DNA of 64,000 nt, from positions 62,001-126,000 of the forward strand of contig NZ_JAGQBH010000006.1 in the NCBI RefSeq assembly GCF_024345535.1. The letters are read 5' to 3'. Under the pieces are notes generated by a model. It had not been told where the DNA came from and did no database searches. It saw only the letters and a program-made list of their open reading frames with translations. The position numbers and the translations under genes are program-made. Of the stretch, positions 24,487 through 32,944 are shown piece after piece. Every line of letters starts with the position of its first letter. Positions within the stretch are counted from its first letter, which is position 1. The DNA comes from Cyanobium sp. N.Huapi 1H5 (GTDB lineage Bacteria; Cyanobacteriota; Cyanobacteriia; PCC-6307; Cyanobiaceae).

Positions 24487-26471
24487 AAGCGTCGCGCCTG
24501 GGCCCTGGCCATGCCGTCGCGGCTGGCCATCCCCCGCAGCCGATCCACGGCCAGTCCCCCGGGGGGAAGTCCATGGGGCAGATGGTCCCCCGATCCCCCC
24601 TCCAGCTCGAAGACCGGCAGCTGCCGCAGGCCATTGGGCCTCAGCTGATCTTCAAGCCGATCCAGATGCACCCCGGCCGGCAGCCAGACCAGTTCGGTGC
24701 GCAGGCAATCCTCGAGGCGCAGCGGTTCCTGGCGACGGAGATCGGAGCCGAGACCGCGCTGCAGGTCGCCGATCGTCACCAGCCCCAGGGCCAGCCCGGC
24801 CCGCTCCACCAGCAGGCAATGGCCATGGCTTTCGATCAGTCGGGCCAGGGCCGCTGAGGCCGTCAGGGAGGCCGGCAGCACCAGGGGAGCCTCCGGTTCG
24901 AAGGCCTCCTCCACCGGGATGGCCGCCAGCTGGCTGCGGCGGCGCTCCTCCAGGGGGTCGGGCCCCATCAGGCCGGGATCCTGGATGCCCTGCCAGCGCT
25001 CCACCAGGGCGGCGCTGAGGCCGGCCGCCGCCATCAGGGGCAGCACGATGCGGATGTCACGGGTGAGCTCGAACAGCAGCAGCAGCGCCGTGAGCGGCGC
25101 CCGGGCGCTGCCGGCCAGCACGGCCGCCATGCCCACCATGGCGTAGGCGGGGGGTTCGGCCACCGGCAGATTCAGGCCGCCGCTGCCCAGGGCCTGGCCG
25201 TAGCAGCTCCCGAGCACGGCCCCCAGGAACAGGGAAGGGGCGAAGCCGCCCCCCACGAAGCCGGTGGCGTTGCTGACGGTGGTGGCCACCAGCTTCACGC
25301 CGATCAGGGCCACCAGGGTGAGCAGGGGGATGCCGCCATCCCGGCCCAGCAGGGCTTCGATCGTGTCGTAGCCGACGCCGAGCACCTGGGGGAACACCAG
25401 GGCCATGCCCCCGAGGGCCGCCCCTCCCAGGGCCGTGGGCAGGCCGGGGGGCAGCCGCCGCACCACCGCCTGGACCCGCTCGTGGCGGCCGGCGGCCAGC
25501 AGCCGGATCAGCAGCCAGGACATCAGGCTGGCCAGCAGGCCCAGCCCCAGATAGAGGGGCAGCTCCAGCGGTGAGCGCACCTCGTAGGCGGGCAGGCGCA
25601 GGATCGGCGTGTCACCCAGGCACAGCTGGGTGACGAGCGCCGAAGCCACCGCCGCCACCAGCACCGCCCGCAGGCTGGGACGTCCCGGGATGGCGCTGTA
25701 GCTGCCCTCGAAGGCGAAGAACACCCCTGCGATGGGGGCCTTGAATCCGGCCGCCAGGCCCGCCGCCACCCCGGCCCCCACCAGCGCCTTCTGGGCCTGG
25801 GGGGAAAGGCGGCCCCGCAGGGCCACCCAGAGGCCGATGTTGCCGCCGCCTTCCACGCTCGGACCCTCGGGCCCGAGCGAGGCGCCACTGCCCAGGCTGA
25901 GGGACGCGGCCACCAGCCGCAGCAGGGGCAGGCGCGGCTCACCCCCCTGGCGGCCGTCCGCGATCGCCATCAGGCTCGACAGACCCGGACCGATGCTGCC
26001 GGCGACATGGCGCAGCAGGCCCACCGCCAGACCGCCGAGGGTCGGCACCACCACCACGGGCCAGAGGGCCAGCCAGTCCGGCGGGGTGGGCAGGCTGATC
26101 GGCGGAGGCTCGGGGGGCGGGGGCGGGGCCGCCGCCAGCAGGCCGATGCCATCGAGCCCGAGCTGAAGCAGGGCCCGCAGGGGGGTGCCGCTGTCGGGCG
26201 CCAGCGGCGGCAGATCAATCGGCGGCAGGTCGGCGGGGGTGGCGGGCGAGGAGCGCCCGATCACCAGCAGGCCCTCGACGAAGGGGCCGAACAGAAAGTT
26301 GTTGATGAAGCCCAGCAGCTCGTGGAACGCCACCACCGCCAGGCCGGTCAGGGTGCCGACCAGGGCCGCCCAGGCCAGCAGGTTCCACTGGAAGGGGAGA
26401 CCCCGCAGGTCCGCCTCGGGCCCGGAGGCCCGGGGGGCCGGTGCCTCAGCTTTCGGGGCGGACGCTGGCAA
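24432..26471 (-). CDS. ClC-family chloride channel/transporter with C-terminal CBS domains
   Basis: 679 residues from TTG 26471, preceded by GGAGGAG and overlapping the hemC 3' end by 26 bp; no ATG/GTG fits the homologous N-terminus. Motifs include '[14 protein letters not shown]' (194-207) with gating Glu202, '[18 protein letters not shown]' and '[15 protein letters not shown]'. Ten or more membrane segments are followed by a soluble region of about 140 residues with two CBS-type units. A Pro-rich insertion of about 60 residues (about 72-135) lies between the first membrane helices. It conducts or exchanges anions; whether channel or H+/Cl- antiporter is not decided. Confidence 0.92.
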
Positions 26472-27399
26472 AGATCTCCTCCAGGATCTCCCCGGCCCCC
26501 TGGGAGCGGAGGGTGCCCGCCAGGGCCACCCCGATCGCCTCGGGATCGGTGGCAGGTCCGCGGCAGCTCTCCCGCAACAGGCGCTGGCCGTCGATGCTGG
26601 CCACCATGCCGGTGAGCACGAGCTCGTCGCCCTCGAAGTGGGTGTTGACGCCGATGGGCACCTGGCAGCCGCCCTCAAGGCTGCGCAGGAAGGCCCGCTC
26701 GGCCAGGCAGCGGCGGGCGGTGGGCTGGTGTTCCAGCACGGCGATCGTCTCGAGCACGGCCGTGTCGCCGGCGCGGCATTCGATGCCCAGGGCCCCCTGG
26801 CCCACGGCATGGAGCGAAATCGAGGGATCGATCAGCTCGTGGATGCGCTCACCGAGGCCGAGGCGGGTGAGGCCGGCCGCCGCCAGGATCAGGCAGTCGT
26901 AGACGCCGGCGTCGAGCTTCTCCAGCCGGGTGATCACGTTGCCCCGCACGTCCTTGAACACCAGGTGGGGGTAGTGGTGACGCAGCTGGGCCAGGCGGCG
27001 CAGGGAGCTGGTGCCCACCACGCTGCCCTCGGGCAGGGTGGCCAGGGTGCGGTCCCGGTGCCGCTCATGCACCACCAGGGCATCGGCCGGATCCTCCCGC
27101 TCGGTGATGCAGCCCAGGATCAGGCCCTCCGGCAGGTTGGTGGGCAGGTCCTTGAGGCTGTGCACGGCGATGTCGGCCCGGTCGACCAGCATCTGGGCCT
27201 CCAGTTCCTTGGTGAACAGGCCCTTGTCGCCGATCTTGGCCAGGGCCACATCGAGAATCTTGTCCCCCTGGGTGGCCATCGCCTCGATCGTGATCGCCAG
27301 CCCGGGGTGGGCGCGGGAGAGCTCATCGCGCACCCAGTGGGTCTGGACCATGGCCAGCTGGCTGCGGCGGGAGGCGATGCGCAGGGTGGAGCTGGTCAT
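26446..27399 (-). CDS. hemC: Porphobilinogen deaminase (hydroxymethylbilane synthase)
   Basis: 317 residues from ATG 27399. It polymerises four porphobilinogens to hydroxymethylbilane, upstream of hemE in tetrapyrrole synthesis. The dipyrromethane cofactor is attached to Cys245 in '[10 protein letters not shown]'. 'VHSLKDLP' and 'GTSSLRR' are family signatures. Length is standard. The ClC gene overlaps its 3' end on the same strand, so the two are likely cotranscribed. Confidence 0.97.
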
Positions 27400-27506
27400 C
27401 GGCGGCTTCGGGCGGCAGCGACCGCTGCCAGGCAACAGCCGCCCAGCCTAGGCATCGGTCCGTCCCGCCCCCGATCCAGCGGACGGAACGTGATCAGCTG
27501 ATGGGA

Positions 27507-27908
27507 TCAGGCGAACAGGTCGAGCGGCAGGGGCCCCCAGGTGTCCTCGGCGTCCGGATCGGAAGCCGCGTGGCCGGTGATCAGGATCCCCGCGCCGAGT
27601 CCCTCCTCGCGGCGCAGATGGAACAGTCCCGTGCGCTGGTTGCCCTTCAGGAACACCGGACCGGGCTCCCCTTCGGCTGGGTCCCCCGGCTGCAGGGCCG
27701 ACCACCCCTGGGCCGCCTCCAGCTGGCGCAGGGCCGTCAGGGCCGCACCTGCCGAGGGGGCCATGATCCCGATCGTGAACCAGTCACAGGCCCCCAGCCG
27801 GGGGGCGAGTTCCCGGCGCAGCGTGGAGGCCGTCTCCCCATCGAGGCAAGGGGCGGTGCGCAGGCCCCGCAGACCGTTCAGGCCGGAGCTGGGCAGGTCG
27901 GTGGTCAA
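27507..27908 (-). CDS. DUF1824 family protein
   Basis: 133 residues from TTG 27908, which overlaps the PAP2 stop as TTGA; no other in-frame start fits. The core 'LRTAPCLDGETASTLRRELA', 'DWFTIGIMA', 'ALRQLEAA' and a C-terminal 'GAGILITGHAASDPDAEDTWGPLPLDLF' match this cyanobacterial family of unknown function. There is no signal or membrane segment. Translational coupling to PAP2 is inferred from the overlap. Confidence 0.75.
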   Translation of the reverse strand: MTTDLPSSGLNGLRGLRTAPCLDGETASTLRRELAPRLGACDWFTIGIMAPSAGAALTALRQLEAAQGWSALQPGDPAEGEPGPVFLKGNQRTGLFHLRREEGLGAGILITGHAASDPDAEDTWGPLPLDLFA

Positions 27909-28567
27909 GGGGATCGCCGTGGTCGAACCGTCCCACTCTGGAGGTCGGCGGGGGGCGGATCGCGCCAGAAGGCCAGGCACACCGTCAGCCAGGCCAGCCC
28001 GACGGCGGCGCCCGCCAGCAGATCCGTGGGCCAGTGGGCCCGCACGTAGAGGGTGCTGAGCCAGACCAGACCCACCAGCCCGCAGGCCACCGCCGCCAGG
28101 GTGCGCCGCAGGCGGGGATGGTGGGACCCCAGGATCACCACCATGGCGAAGTAGAAGGCCACGGCCCCGGCGGCATGGCCGCTGGGGAAGCTGTGGCCAT
28201 CGAGGGGCAGCAGGCTGCCCGGCGGGCGCTGGCGGCTGAACAAGGGCTTGAACACCAGATCCACCAGGATCAGGATGCCGCCGGTGGCCATCACCAGCAG
28301 GCGCAGGTCCTTCCACCAGCGCCGTCGCAGCAGGTGGATCAGCGCCATCGCCACCAGGACGGCGGTGAAGCCGACGCCGGTGGCCCGATACACCTGGGTC
28401 AGCACCCCGCCCACCAGGCCGTGGAAATGGTTGCCCAGCCAGTCCAGGACGGCCGCGTCCAGCAGGGCCAGGGGCCGGCCCGGGGCCACGGCCACGAACA
28501 ACCCCACCAGCACGATCAGGCAGCCGGGCAGCAGGATCCGGTCGCGGGGCAGCAGATGGAACCCCAT
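27905..28567 (-). CDS. PAP2-family membrane phosphatase
   Basis: 220 residues from ATG 28567, which overlaps the GT39 stop as TGATG. Six membrane segments are predicted. The phosphatase motifs are 'KPLFSRQRP' (Lys108 to Pro116 region), 'PSGH' (128-131) and a third box 'STLYVRAHWPTD' with His178 and Asp182. The third box normally begins Ser-Arg; here Arg is replaced by Thr172. Such enzymes dephosphorylate phosphatidate or polyprenyl diphosphate. Position directly after GT39 and GT2-GtrA genes suggests a polyprenyl-phosphate substrate. Confidence 0.85.
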   Translation of the reverse strand: MGFHLLPRDRILLPGCLIVLVGLFVAVAPGRPLALLDAAVLDWLGNHFHGLVGGVLTQVYRATGVGFTAVLVAMALIHLLRRRWWKDLRLLVMATGGILILVDLVFKPLFSRQRPPGSLLPLDGHSFPSGHAAGAVAFYFAMVVILGSHHPRLRRTLAAVACGLVGLVWLSTLYVRAHWPTDLLAGAAVGLAWLTVCLAFWRDPPPADLQSGTVRPRRSP

Positions 28568-30381
28568 CACGGCACCAGATGGTGGCGGGGCACCCGCCAG
28601 AGGGCCAGCTCCCCGGTGCGGGCCAGCCGCTCGATCCCCTGCGGGGGCAGGGCCAGGGCTTCGAGATCACGGCGATCGCCCACCAGGCGCACGGAGCGAG
28701 TGCCCGGCTCCAGGGCGAGGGCGGCAGGGCCCTGCAGGGCGAGCTGGTTGATGTGGTGGCGATCGGAAACGAAGACGGCCTCCGGCTCGCCGTAGAACAG
28801 CAGGCTGTAGCGCAAGGTGCCGACGATCAGCAGCGGCTCATCGGGCCTGGCGGCGGCCTGGGCGGCGCGGGCCATCTGGCGCAGGGGCACCTGACGCTCC
28901 CGGTCCAGCAGGGGAGCGAGCGGGGCGATCACCAGGCCGAGCACCGCCAGGAACCCGGCCAGACTCGGCACCCACAGCCAGTCGGTGGCCTGCGGCCGCA
29001 GCAGCAGCGCCAGCAGGGCCAGGGCCGTCAGCCCCAGACACAGCGAGAGCGCCAGGGGCAGCCCTGAGCGGGAGAGGGCGGCGCCGAACTCCGGATAGGC
29101 GGGATCCCCCGCCACCCAGCTAGGGGCCAGGGCGGCCGCCACCGCCATGGCGCCCAGCAGCAGCACCTCGAGGCCGGCGGCGATCCGCACCCCCGTCCGG
29201 CCCGGGGCTGTCCCCGCTGGAGTGGTCGCCTCCGGCAGGGGGCGCCACAGGAGCGCCACCAGCAGGCTCGCCGCCGGCAGGGCCGGCAGGATGTAGCCGG
29301 GCAGCTTGGTGGCGGCGGCGGAGAAGAAGGCCACCACCAGCACCAGCCAGAGCAGCAGGAACAGCCCCAGTTCCGCCGGGGCGCCGCCGTCGGCGGAAGG
29401 GCCGGCTGCTGCGGTCCGCCAACGGGAGGGCCGCCAGAAGCCCTGGGCCGCGATCGCCAGGGGCAGGAACAGCGACCAGGGCAGCACCAGCAGCACCAGC
29501 CAGGGCAGGTAGAACCAGGGGGGACCGGGGTGGTCGTAGAGCACCGTCGTGAAGCGCTGCAGGTTGCTGAACCCGAGGAAGCCACCGATGAAGTCGCCGC
29601 CGTTGGCGGCCGCCGCCGCCCCGTACCAGGGGGCGCTCACCCCGAGGAACAGGGCCACCATGGCCAGCAGGGGCCGCCAGCGCAGCCAGGCTCGCCAGTG
29701 GCCGGTCAACAACAGGAAGACCACCACCACCAGCCCCGGCAGCAACAGACCCACCGGGCCCTTGGCCAGCACGGCGATGCCCGCGAACAGCGCCATGGCC
29801 GCCCGGCCAAGGGGCGCCCGCCAGGGGTCGACCCGGTGGCGGTGGGCCAGCAGGAAGCCGAACAACGCCAGGCTGATGGCGCTGGAGAGAAACATGTCGG
29901 TGGTGGAGGTGCGTCCCCAGCCGATCCAGCCCGGGGTCGTGGCGATCACCCCGGCCGCCACCACAGCCCTGAGCAGTCTGGGCCGGCCCGCCTCACCCGC
30001 CGGGGACCAGGCCAGCATCAGGCCGAAGGCCGCCACCACCACGGCACTGGCGGCGAGGGCCACCGGCAGCCGGGCGGCCCATTCGCTGACCCCGAACAGC
30101 CGGAAGCTCAGCCCCACCATCCAGTAGCCCCAGACGGGGTAGTCGAAGAAGCGTTCGCCGTTCCACCAGGGGGTGACCCAGTCACCCCGCTCCAGCATCT
30201 GGTGGCCCACCTCGACGAACAGAGCCTCGGTCTTGTCCATCAGGCCGACGCTGCCCAGGCCCTGGAAGAAGGCCAGCCAGCAGATCAACAGCAGCCAGAG
30301 GCCGCTGAGCACCCAGACCATGTGCCGGTGGCTTCGGGCGCGGACACCTTCCGGCTGGGCCCCCCGGGCAGCAGACACCAT
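28567..30381 (-). CDS. Glycosyltransferase family 39 (ArnT/PMT-like) membrane protein
   Basis: 604 residues with about 11-12 membrane helices. The first periplasmic loop carries the acidic segment 'MDKTEALFVEVG' and 'WWNGERFFDYPVWGYW', typical of GT39 enzymes that use polyprenyl-phosphate sugars as donors. The C-terminal soluble part (about 500-604) lies in the periplasm. It would transfer a sugar to lipid, glycan or protein; the acceptor is unknown. It sits between a GT2-GtrA gene, the likely donor maker, and a PAP2 gene. Confidence 0.88.
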   Translation of the reverse strand: MVSAARGAQPEGVRARSHRHMVWVLSGLWLLLICWLAFFQGLGSVGLMDKTEALFVEVGHQMLERGDWVTPWWNGERFFDYPVWGYWMVGLSFRLFGVSEWAARLPVALAASAVVVAAFGLMLAWSPAGEAGRPRLLRAVVAAGVIATTPGWIGWGRTSTTDMFLSSAISLALFGFLLAHRHRVDPWRAPLGRAAMALFAGIAVLAKGPVGLLLPGLVVVVFLLLTGHWRAWLRWRPLLAMVALFLGVSAPWYGAAAAANGGDFIGGFLGFSNLQRFTTVLYDHPGPPWFYLPWLVLLVLPWSLFLPLAIAAQGFWRPSRWRTAAAGPSADGGAPAELGLFLLLWLVLVVAFFSAAATKLPGYILPALPAASLLVALLWRPLPEATTPAGTAPGRTGVRIAAGLEVLLLGAMAVAAALAPSWVAGDPAYPEFGAALSRSGLPLALSLCLGLTALALLALLLRPQATDWLWVPSLAGFLAVLGLVIAPLAPLLDRERQVPLRQMARAAQAAARPDEPLLIVGTLRYSLLFYGEPEAVFVSDRHHINQLALQGPAALALEPGTRSVRLVGDRRDLEALALPPQGIERLARTGELALWRVPRHHLVP

Positions 30382-30459
30382 GCTGGGTCGACGACGAGAT
30401 CAAGGGGAAGTTAAGGCCAGGGCCCGCCGACCTGTCCGCCGGCCCCGGGCTCGGCGGCA

Positions 30460-31569
30460 CTAGGGCGTGTTCCAGACGAAGCGGGAGGAAGCCGCGTACT
30501 TCCAGACGAAGTCGACGGCGATACCCGCCAGCAAGGCCAGCAGCGGCTGGGGGGTGACCTGGCGGTAGAACGCCGAGGACACCCCCACGTTGGCCGCCAT
30601 CCCCAGGGAGGTGACCAGCAGGAAACGGACCAGGCCGAACACCAGGGCGATGCCGCTGAGCTGCTGGAAGCGGAACGTCAGCACGTTGTTGATCAGGTAG
30701 TTGGAGCAGCCGGCGCTGACCACGGCCACCACCTGGGCCTGCTCGAAACTGAGGCCGAGCAGGTCCTGGCTGAGGGTGAACACCAGCAGGTGGATGCCGA
30801 TGCCCGTGCCCCCCACCAGGCCAAAACTGACGGCCCGCCGCGGCACCATGCGCAGCAGCAGGGTGTGCAGGATCGAGACCCCCAGATCCCAGATCACCGC
30901 GAGGTTCAGCTTCGATTCCCCGGCGCTGCGGGGCTGGAAACTCAGGGGCACCTCAGCCACCGCCAGATGGCCGTGGCTGAGGGCCAGCAGTTCGTAGAGA
31001 AACTTGAAACCGTTGACATCCACCTGCCGGACGTAGGGGAGGCAACGCTCGGGGCGCAGGGCGAAGAAACCGCTCATGTAGTCGGTCAGATGGCGGTAGC
31101 GGGGCAGGCTGAACCGGGCCACCGTGTTCGCCCAGGTGGAGTTCCGCTCCCTCCGCTCGCTCAGGCCCATGATGCTGGCCTGGGGATGGAAGCGGCTGCC
31201 GACCATGAGATCGCCGCCGCTCTCGATCAGGGCGGAGACGGCATGGGCCACCGCGGCGGGCTCGTGCTGGCCGTCGCTGTCCATGACCACCACCACATCG
31301 CCGGTGGCGTCCAGGATCCCTTCCTTGATGGCGCTGGAGAGACCGAAGCGGCCGACACGACGGATCAGGCGGACACAACCATGGCGGTGGGCCAGCATCC
31401 GCACCTTTTCCGATGTTCCATCGCTGGAATCATCATCAACGAACAGCAATTCGAGGTCGAAGCCGTCTCTGAGTGGCAGCAACTCCTCGACGATGGGCTC
31501 CACGTTGGAGCACTCGTTGAAGGTGGGCAGCACAACCGTCAGACGCAGGAGCTGATCCCGTGGCGTCAT
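30460..31569 (-). CDS. Polyprenyl-phosphate glycosyltransferase fused to GtrA domain
   Basis: 369 residues. The GT2 domain (about 8-235) has 'VVLPTFNE', 'FVDDDSSDGT' (43-52) and the DxD site Asp97-Ser-Asp99. A GtrA-like domain with four membrane helices follows (about 245-365). GT2 enzymes of the DPM1 type make polyprenyl-phosphate-mannose or -glucose at the inner face; GtrA is proposed to help flip the product. The pairing with GT39 downstream supports one lipid-linked sugar pathway. Confidence 0.9.
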   Translation of the reverse strand: MTPRDQLLRLTVVLPTFNECSNVEPIVEELLPLRDGFDLELLFVDDDSSDGTSEKVRMLAHRHGCVRLIRRVGRFGLSSAIKEGILDATGDVVVVMDSDGQHEPAAVAHAVSALIESGGDLMVGSRFHPQASIMGLSERRERNSTWANTVARFSLPRYRHLTDYMSGFFALRPERCLPYVRQVDVNGFKFLYELLALSHGHLAVAEVPLSFQPRSAGESKLNLAVIWDLGVSILHTLLLRMVPRRAVSFGLVGGTGIGIHLLVFTLSQDLLGLSFEQAQVVAVVSAGCSNYLINNVLTFRFQQLSGIALVFGLVRFLLVTSLGMAANVGVSSAFYRQVTPQPLLALLAGIAVDFVWKYAASSRFVWNTP

Positions 31570-31648: not shown

Positions 31649-32944
31649 TTACTTGATGTACTCCTTCAGGACACCATTGCGATTAGGGTGGCGCAGTTTG
31701 CGCAGGGCCTTGGCTTCGATCTGCCGGATGCGCTCGCGGGTGACGTCGAAGATCTGGCCGATCTCTTCGAGGGTCTTCATGCGGCCGTCATCGAGGCCGT
31801 AGCGCAGGCGCAGCACGTCCCGCTCGCGGGGGCTGAGGGTGGCCAGCACACCTTCAAGATCCTCACGCAGGAGATTCTTGGCGACATCCTGCTCAGGATT
31901 CTCGATATCGGCCTCGATGAAGTCGCCGAGCCTGGAGTCTTCCTCCTTACCAATGGGCGTTTCGAGCGAGATCGGCAGCTGGGCGGATTTGGCGATGAAG
32001 CGGAGCTTCTCGATCGTCATCTCCATGCTTTCGGCGATCTCCTCCTCGGTGGGCTTGCGACCGAACTCCTGGGACAGGGTCTTGGTGGTCTTCTTGATCC
32101 GGGAGATCGTCTCGTAAAGGTGAACGGGAAGGCGGATGGTGCGGCTCTGATCGGCGATCGCACGGGTGATCGCCTGACGGATCCACCAGGTGGCATAGGT
32201 GGAGAACTTGTAGCCCTTTTCGTGGTCGAATTTCTCGGCGGCGCGGATCAGGCCGAGGCTGCCTTCCTGGATCAGGTCCTGGAAGGACAGACCCCGGTTC
32301 ATGTACTTCTTGGCGATCGAGACGACCAGCCGCAGGTTCGACTGGACCATCTTCTCCTTGGCCCGCCGACCCAGCATCAGCCGGCGGCGGAACTTGATCA
32401 GCGGCATGTCGAAGATCGCCGCCCATTCCTTGGTGTCTGGGAAATGGCCCTTGTCGGCCTCGAACTCGGCCGCCTTCTCCTCCAGCTCGAGCAGGTCGGC
32501 GATCTTGCGGGCCAGCTCGATCTCCTCATCGGGCCGCAGCAGGCGGATGCGGCCGATCTCCTGGAGATAGACGCGAATCGAATCCTCGGTGTAGACGCCC
32601 TTCGGGCCCACCTTGATGCTGGCCAGGGCCTTGGCGCCCTTGGCGTCCTTGCGGAGGTCGCCGCCGGTCTCCGGCAGGTCGTCATCCCCGTCGAGACCGT
32701 CGTCGATGACGACCGCCGCGGGCTTCTCAGCCGCAGGTTTGGCCGCGGACTTGGCGGTCGTCTTGGCGGCGGCCTTGGCCGCAGGCTTGGCGGCCCCAGC
32801 CTTGGGGGTGGCCGTTCGGGCACGGGCCGCGGTCTTCCTGGCCGTCACCGCCGAGGGGTCGATGGGCAGCACCTCGCCGGTGGCGGAGACGGTGGCCAGG
32901 ATCTCAGGAACGGCGGCTTTGGCCTTGGCGGCGACTGGGCTCAT
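31649..32944 (-). CDS. rpoD: Principal RNA polymerase sigma factor (group 1, SigA/RpoD1)
   Basis: 431 residues. Region 1.2 (about 119-150), region 2 with '[25 protein letters not shown]' and '[10 protein letters not shown]', region 3, and region 4.2 ending '[18 protein letters not shown]' are all intact and typical of the essential cyanobacterial sigma. Residues 35-77 are an unusual Ala/Lys/Pro-rich stretch like histone-H1 tails, followed by an acidic patch (81-90). A sigma-70-like promoter 430 bp upstream implies a long leader. Confidence 0.97.

Follow-up and report, generated by a model that had tools for sequence, protein, structure and literature searches.

In Alphaproteobacteria, the lipid A galacturonic acid modules of the rgtE-lpxE-rgtF type combine a GT2 enzyme that makes a polyprenyl-phosphate sugar, a phosphatase of the PAP2 superfamily and a membrane sugar transferase, and in Oligotropha the three genes carry consecutive locus tags (c19730, c19740 and c19750), according to the excerpted text of PMC7663294. 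A stretch of 64,000 nucleotides (nt) from Cyanobium sp. N.Huapi 1H5 (the window) contains a cassette with the same three functions. A GT2-GtrA fusion, a GT39 transferase and a PAP2 phosphatase are encoded head-to-tail on the minus strand and are followed by a DUF1824 gene. GT39 and PAP2, usually with GT2-GtrA, probably constitute an envelope glycosylation module that, in picocyanobacteria resembling Cyanobium and freshwater Synechococcus, fills a variable slot flanked by rpoD and DUF1824-hemC. The linkage of the three functions is also observed in relatives, where GT2-GtrA adjoins GT39 in 32 of 43 genomes and PAP2 does so in 41. Unlike in the rgtE-lpxE-rgtF modules, the GT2 enzyme has a GtrA domain, the gene order differs, the third PAP2 motif is altered and LpxK was not found; this comparison concerns functions and gene order. 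As a module, the cassette is of a familiar kind; what sets it apart is an unusual variant of one enzyme, the PAP2 phosphatase. The window contains the following features, with enzyme names predicted from family and structure matches.

30460..31569, minus strand: GT2-GtrA fusion, a polyprenyl-phosphate sugar synthase of 369 amino acids resembling dolichyl-phosphate-mannose (DPM) synthase (PF00535 and PF04138; 5mlz)
28567..30381, minus strand: GT39/ArnT-like membrane glycosyltransferase of 604 amino acids (PF13231 and PF02366; ArnT 5ezm)
27905..28570, minus strand: PAP2 membrane phosphatase, YodM/LpxE-like, 221 amino acids from a GTG start (PF01569; 5jki and 6ebu)
28567, minus strand: alternative ATG start of PAP2, giving 220 amino acids (start codon reading)
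27507..27908, minus strand: DUF1824 protein of 133 amino acids with a TTG start (PF08854; structure 2q22)
31649..32944, minus strand: rpoD-type sigma factor gene, the upstream frame of the locus (named from its sequence)
26446..27435, minus strand: hemC-type gene, the downstream frame of the locus, start uncertain (named from its sequence)

The open reading frames (ORFs), together with Pfam matches above the curated cut-offs, bear out the head-to-tail order and the overlapping gene ends described in a first-pass annotation. GT39 and PAP2 meet in TGATG, or in GTGA if PAP2 starts at GTG, and PAP2 and DUF1824 meet in TTGA. The TTG start of DUF1824 is the sole ATG, GTG or TTG codon near the expected position, as read by eye. 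GT2-GtrA is separated from GT39 by 78 nt.

Linkage of GT39 and PAP2 at a variable slot

The distribution of the cassette was analyzed in 151 genomes of the family Cyanobiaceae. Orthologues were defined by a score above 500 bits for GT39, an E value of at most 1e-8 for PAP2 and an E value of at most 1e-30 for GT2-GtrA. By these criteria, GT39 was found in 43 genomes, PAP2 in 44 and GT2-GtrA in 88; DUF1824 was found in 142. Adjacency was counted with 56 of the 142 DUF1824 places entered, enough to cover all genomes with PAP2 or GT39. GT39 and PAP2 lie within 2 kb of each other in all GT39 genomes except one in which they are on different contigs and one (G268) that has no PAP2. GT2-GtrA is located far from GT39 on the same contig in two genomes and on another contig in nine. 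All four genes occur together in 29 genomes. Scattering of the genes in close relatives, which the first-pass annotation had named as speaking against its proposal, is seen only in part: PAP2 and DUF1824 remain neighbours in 42 of 44 family genomes, and GT2-GtrA is away from GT39 in 11 of 43.

The coupling of GT39 and PAP2 that the overlap had suggested is substantiated by gene spacing and by correlated divergence. The two genes overlap or abut in 50 of 78 rows. The neighbourhood set comprised 91 rows, with some genomes present twice and gene starts assigned mechanically; 11 of 102 loci (10 from Prochlorococcus and the truncated L203) had been dropped for a missing DUF1824 match. In a Mantel test on protein distances, GT39 and PAP2 gave the highest correlation of the six gene pairs (r = 0.93, n = 72; other pairs, 0.65–0.79), and the maximum for any pair among 300 shuffles was 0.123. 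The real unit is the GT39-PAP2 pair, with GT2-GtrA as a frequent but optional partner. The pair also occurs outside the family, in three Planktothrix loci and one Oscillatoriales locus, where PAP2 precedes GT39 in all four cases and GT39 scores 524–529 bits with a profile of the cassette GT39. In a further locus (L220), a distant PMT_2 gene that the GT39 profile does not recognize stands beside a related PAP2.

The slot between rpoD and DUF1824-hemC is variably filled. It may be empty or contain GT2-GtrA on its own, only GT39-PAP2, a single decayed PAP2 or the full set. The culturable strain Synechococcus WH 5701 carries GT39-PAP2-DUF1824 at this locus. In G268, the slot (L063:8494-12293) contains GT2-GtrA and GT39, and a second PMT, a GtrA-YdjC fusion and a GT2 stand in the place of PAP2. 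These replacement genes resemble known lipid-linked amino-sugar routes; in Francisella, the YdjC-family protein NaxD reportedly removes the acetyl group from a lipid-linked amino sugar used for lipid A. In G169 and G400, GT2-GtrA and GT39 are separated by approximately 1.4–1.5 kb (L032:10885-12369 and L129:5828-7270), and none of the four scanned ORFs of this interval matches a Pfam family.

The history of the slot was analyzed with a midpoint-rooted tree of HemC, DUF1824 and RpoD, built without an outgroup from 46 rows after every other cassette-bearing row was dropped. Full cassettes appear in both halves of the tree, and empty or partial slots are nested at several places, with several low supports. 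This nesting favours repeated loss over repeated gain as the apparent history of the slot, and empty slots as the ancestral state were set aside.

In freshwater relatives of Synechococcus, the surroundings of the slot are constant. On the minus strand, the rpoD-type sigma factor gene, the four cassette genes and hemC follow one another, with priA ahead on the opposite strand; rpoD, hemC and priA were named by reading their sequences and not by a family search. In 25 loci picked from genera near the window, a hemC relative follows DUF1824 in every case, and an rpoD relative lies upstream on the same strand in 24; in the remaining locus (L126) it is present only as an edge fragment approximately 4.9 kb away. 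Scans for promoters, terminators and RNA families returned no promoter-like site, no RNA family reaching the Rfam gathering score and four terminator-like sites, compared with a shuffle mean of 1.8 (standard deviation 1.5). Among the best 80 of 164 relatives of the window PAP2 gene, the nearest named ones are from Synechococcus sp. BO 8801 (98%) and Aphanothece cf. minutissima (95%), both of which we take to be freshwater organisms. One rpoD-GT39-PAP2-DUF1824-hemC contig of picocyanobacterial type (L153) is filed under a metagenome-assembled genome of Bifidobacterium breve and represents a mislabelled or contaminated record.

Predicted transferase, donor synthase and phosphatase

The GT39 protein matches PF13231 (40 bits) and PF02366 (25 bits). 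The only solved relative found is ArnT (5ezm), which aligns with GT39 residues 23–380 (E = 3e-31), so that ArnT-like, presumably CAZy family GT83, is a more exact label than GT39. The protein is related to ArnT but does not reach equivalog level, with a score of 137.5 bits against the NCBIfam model PRK13279 (cut-off 567). Residues D49, T51, E52 and D162 are each conserved in 97% or more of 77 rows. The first loop of ArnT (5ezm and 5f15) contains an Asp-Glu pair, whereas the cassette GT39 has Thr-Glu there and an Asp two positions before the Thr. Literature searches on cyanobacterial ArnT or carrier work and on lipid A glycosyltransferases of picocyanobacteria returned no paper.

GT2-GtrA matches PF00535 (91 bits) and PF04138 (68 bits) and aligns over residues 6–368 with the DPM synthase 5mlz, which we take to be from Pyrococcus furiosus (150 bits, E = 5e-43). 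Residues D97, D99 and Q101 are conserved in 97% or more of the 58 rows of orthologues, and both domains and the DxDxQ pattern, presumably a metal site, place the protein among DPM synthase-like GT2 enzymes. A role as donor maker for GT39, as the first-pass annotation had it, is plausible. The GtrA domain had been called flippase-like in that annotation; because the alignment with 5mlz includes the membrane domain, GtrA appears at least as likely to be part of the synthase. No paper was found in a literature search on the Pyrococcus GtrA synthase.

PAP2 matches PF01569 with 58.5 bits (cut-off 27.2), and its sequence matches the phosphatidylglycerophosphate (PGP) phosphatase YodM/PgpB of Bacillus subtilis (5jki) and Aquifex LpxE (6ebu; E = 4e-5). 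A structural model of PAP2 (mean predicted local distance difference test score (pLDDT) 86) superimposes on YodM and LpxE with template modelling (TM) scores by target of 0.84 and 0.72, respectively. The link to LpxE consists in this similarity to 6ebu, and no LpxE model is among the NCBIfam matches of PAP2. PAP2 shares the fold, motif 1 and the PSG of motif 2 with YodM and LpxE but differs from them in motif 3, which reads STx3RxHx3D in PAP2 and SRx5Hx3D in the two solved enzymes. The motifs of PAP2 are located as follows.

28223..28249, minus strand: motif 1, KPLFSRQRP (K-x6-R-P), residues 108–116, canonical
28175..28186, minus strand: motif 2, PSGH, residues 129–132, canonical
28022..28057, minus strand: motif 3 variant STLYVRAHWPTD, residues 172–183 (from alignments against the canonical motif given in the excerpt of PMC6581854)

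In the canonical motif 3, SRX5HX3D, the Arg residue binds a phosphate analogue in LpxE (excerpt of PMC6581854). In STLYVRAHWPTD, the His and Asp residues are retained, Thr replaces this Arg, and another Arg is located two residues before the His (His-2). The K, R and P residues of motif 1, PSGH, and the His, Asp and His-2 Arg residues of motif 3 are invariant in an alignment of 14 orthologues. KX6RP and PSGH are present in 79 of 80 PAP2 rows, as is Thr combined with Arg at His-2, and the exception in both counts is a decayed copy. These row counts are not independent of the search, whose peptide patterns included PAP2 motifs. L203 and 10 of 10 Prochlorococcus loci share Thr with Arg at His-2, and all four Planktothrix and Oscillatoriales loci have Ser with Arg at His-2. 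An independent profile search for PAP2 relatives across the class gave, in its best 30 loci, 20 with the canonical Arg, four with Arg at His-2 (three belong to the family, window included) and six with neither, one of which has Lys at His-2. Class-wide relatives thus display canonical, intermediate and displaced forms of motif 3. The Cyanobium genome itself has two further PAP2 matches, one of them weak, and another PAP2 of this genome (L132) retains the canonical Arg.

Candidate pathway and competing accounts

In the proposed pathway, GT2-GtrA would load a sugar from a nucleotide sugar onto polyprenyl phosphate at the cytosolic face, and the lipid-linked sugar would then be flipped across the membrane. 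At the periplasmic face, PAP2 would strip phosphate from the acceptor lipid, and the ArnT-like enzyme would transfer the sugar to the acceptor and free polyprenyl phosphate for reuse without a phosphatase. The individual reactions and the identities of sugar and acceptor are all proposals made from enzyme families and gene linkage; the families, the linkage, the distribution, the correlated divergence and the independence of DUF1824 are observed. Transfer of the ArnT/PMT type releases polyprenyl monophosphate, which is reusable as such. A phosphatase beside such a transferase is therefore accounted for more readily by a task on the acceptor than by carrier recycling, the role suggested for PAP2 in the first-pass annotation. 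PAP2 probably dephosphorylates the acceptor and does not recycle the carrier.

The most likely acceptor is lipid A, a tentative assignment. The lipid A of two marine Synechococcus strains lacks phosphate and carries one galacturonic acid, according to the excerpt of a review (PMC4515613). LpxK was not found in the Cyanobium genome by a search that was positive in 3 of 14 control genomes. Plasmid-borne relatives, sought as a route to annotated Rgt or LpxE neighbours, gave only partial matches (13 and 31 records). A more specific scheme, doubtful as a whole, would make the cassette a lipid A remodelling module in which the phosphate-binding Arg of PAP2 has moved by approximately one helix turn (His-6 to His-2), phosphate is cleared for ArnT-like sugar transfer, and the genes have been lost stepwise and repeatedly at a fixed slot.

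Several observations weigh against an envelope glycosylation module. The canonical motif 3 Arg is missing, so that the activity of PAP2 is not certain from its sequence. GT2-GtrA is not adjacent to GT39 in 11 of 43 genomes. The GT39 orthologue is absent from 108 of 151 family genomes and the PAP2 orthologue from 107, very probably including the marine Synechococcus-like and Prochlorococcus-like genera, and at least one GT39 match is present in 148 of the 151. The GT39 profile found nothing in the 1.5-kb flanks of 27 of 27 non-family loci of the class with a related PAP2, and the fetched stretches of 10 of 10 Prochlorococcus PAP2 loci contain neither GT39, an absence that counts here, nor DUF1824. 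At L218:426-2196, a related PAP2 that has Arg at His-2 comes immediately after a BacA-family gene, an arrangement that favours a lipid-carrier role. The close linkage of PAP2 and DUF1824 within the family, where the genes are adjacent in 42 of 44 genomes, cannot by itself tell a partner from a bystander. The cassette is also unlikely to be the general source of phosphate-free lipid A bearing galacturonic acid, because the known structure comes from marine Synechococcus, whose kind is very probably among the genomes without it. It is at best an addition to the core pathway, which is perhaps run by another GT39.

The strongest competing account, itself unlikely, regards PAP2 as a lipid-carrier phosphatase acting on undecaprenyl pyrophosphate or PGP for carrier supply, with a protein or polysaccharide as the GT39 acceptor. 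The PGP phosphatase YodM is the best match of the PAP2 model, the L218 arrangement fits, and so do the Prochlorococcus loci, in which PAP2 has no GT39 nearby; an alanine racemase gene is the upstream neighbour in two of the three Prochlorococcus PAP2 loci scanned for neighbours. However, ArnT/PMT-type transfer makes no pyrophosphate, and the two other PAP2 matches in the genome also count against this account. LpxE enzymes are able to act on undecaprenyl pyrophosphate too (excerpt of PMC6581854), but a housekeeping carrier phosphatase is not expected to follow one glycosyltransferase as closely as PAP2 follows GT39 in gene order and protein distance.

It is less probable still that PAP2 is a phosphotransferase or a degenerate binding protein instead of a hydrolase. 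The missing motif 3 Arg suggests this, with Thr or Ser in its position in every intact copy of the subfamily that was read, as do the six class-level relatives with Arg at neither position. The invariance of motif 1, PSGH and the His, Asp and His-2 Arg residues in the orthologues argues for a hydrolase. The one PAP2 copy in a slot where no GT39 was detected (L131:6161-6637) has a damaged PSGH and a damaged catalytic Asp. Gene decay is in progress in this copy, which is the expected fate of a functional enzyme that is no longer needed, and the joint loss also speaks for the glycosylation module.

DUF1824 and the reach of the module

DUF1824 is a cyanobacterial core gene. The window protein matches PF08854 with 105 bits, above the curated cut-off, and the family occurs in 129 of the 291 phylum genomes, including all 37 drawn from Cyanobiaceae; going by the order of listing, these are 129 of the 141 genomes of the class, with none beyond it. 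A search with only the window protein gave no match in 9 of the 151 family genomes, and seven of these are all the drawn members of one genus; the window protein is an insensitive query that also misses many of 44 non-family DUF1824 loci. The structural model (pLDDT 92) displays a mixed alpha/beta fold without a long hydrophobic helix bundle and matches only 2q22, the DUF1824 structure of Anabaena variabilis, which has the same fold (TM scores of 0.83 by query and 0.85 by target, 29% identity). The next matches have E values above 1, and the fold gives nothing on function beyond 2q22. The only paper found with the word DUF1824 groups it, in the excerpted text, with a photosystem I domain in metagenomes.

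DUF1824 is conserved independently of the other three genes, the outcome that the first-pass annotation had named as speaking against its proposal that DUF1824 acts with the pathway. A PAP2 orthologue is absent from 98 of the 142 family genomes with DUF1824. Among 80 DUF1824 neighbourhoods (36 from the family and 44 others), cassette genes flank DUF1824 in four, three with all of them and one with GT2-GtrA and GT39. In 13 family loci, the gene next to DUF1824 belongs to a cluster represented in L037 by the threonyl-tRNA synthetase gene (thrS). In a genus with small genomes, DUF1824 is flanked in 12 of 12 loci by genes whose L034 representatives are MIF-like and glyQ, one on either side. In seven cassette-free loci, with an eighth (L126) left out because no rpoD stands beside DUF1824, DUF1824 directly follows rpoD; in six of the seven the two genes abut or overlap, and four of these overlaps measure 4 nt. 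The TTGA shared with PAP2 therefore reflects a DUF1824 gene that sits tight behind whichever gene precedes it. In the Planktothrix and Oscillatoriales loci, the DUF1824 profile found nothing adjoining the GT39-PAP2 pair (4 of 4), and it detected DUF1824 in 7 of 7 positive-control loci, five of which are in its own alignment.

The overlap of PAP2 and DUF1824 measures 4 nt in 29 of 73 rows, and the spacing of the two genes is 0 nt or less in 45, not counting seven rows in which the PAP2 ORF overruns DUF1824 by more than 60 nt. The protein distances of DUF1824 correlate with those of HemC (0.79), GT39 (0.77) and PAP2 (0.73), slightly higher with HemC than with PAP2. A functional partnership of DUF1824 with PAP2 or GT39, for which the overlaps, the linkage within the family and the correlation with GT39 speak, is highly improbable and was rejected on distribution and gene context: the core distribution, the other neighbours and the abutment to rpoD in cassette-free loci strongly disfavour it, and DUF1824 very probably takes no part in the glycosylation module.

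Adjacency would have placed a DUF in a pathway from which the analysis removes it, and a four-gene guess becomes a testable unit of two or three genes. The displaced Arg of the PAP2 variant offers a simple mutational test of phosphate binding by PAP2 enzymes. Phosphate-free lipid A is chemically known from cyanobacteria, and the analysis names candidates for its tailoring. If the cassette is a remodelling module of the more specific kind set out above, its stepwise loss at one slot would vary the cell surface among close relatives.

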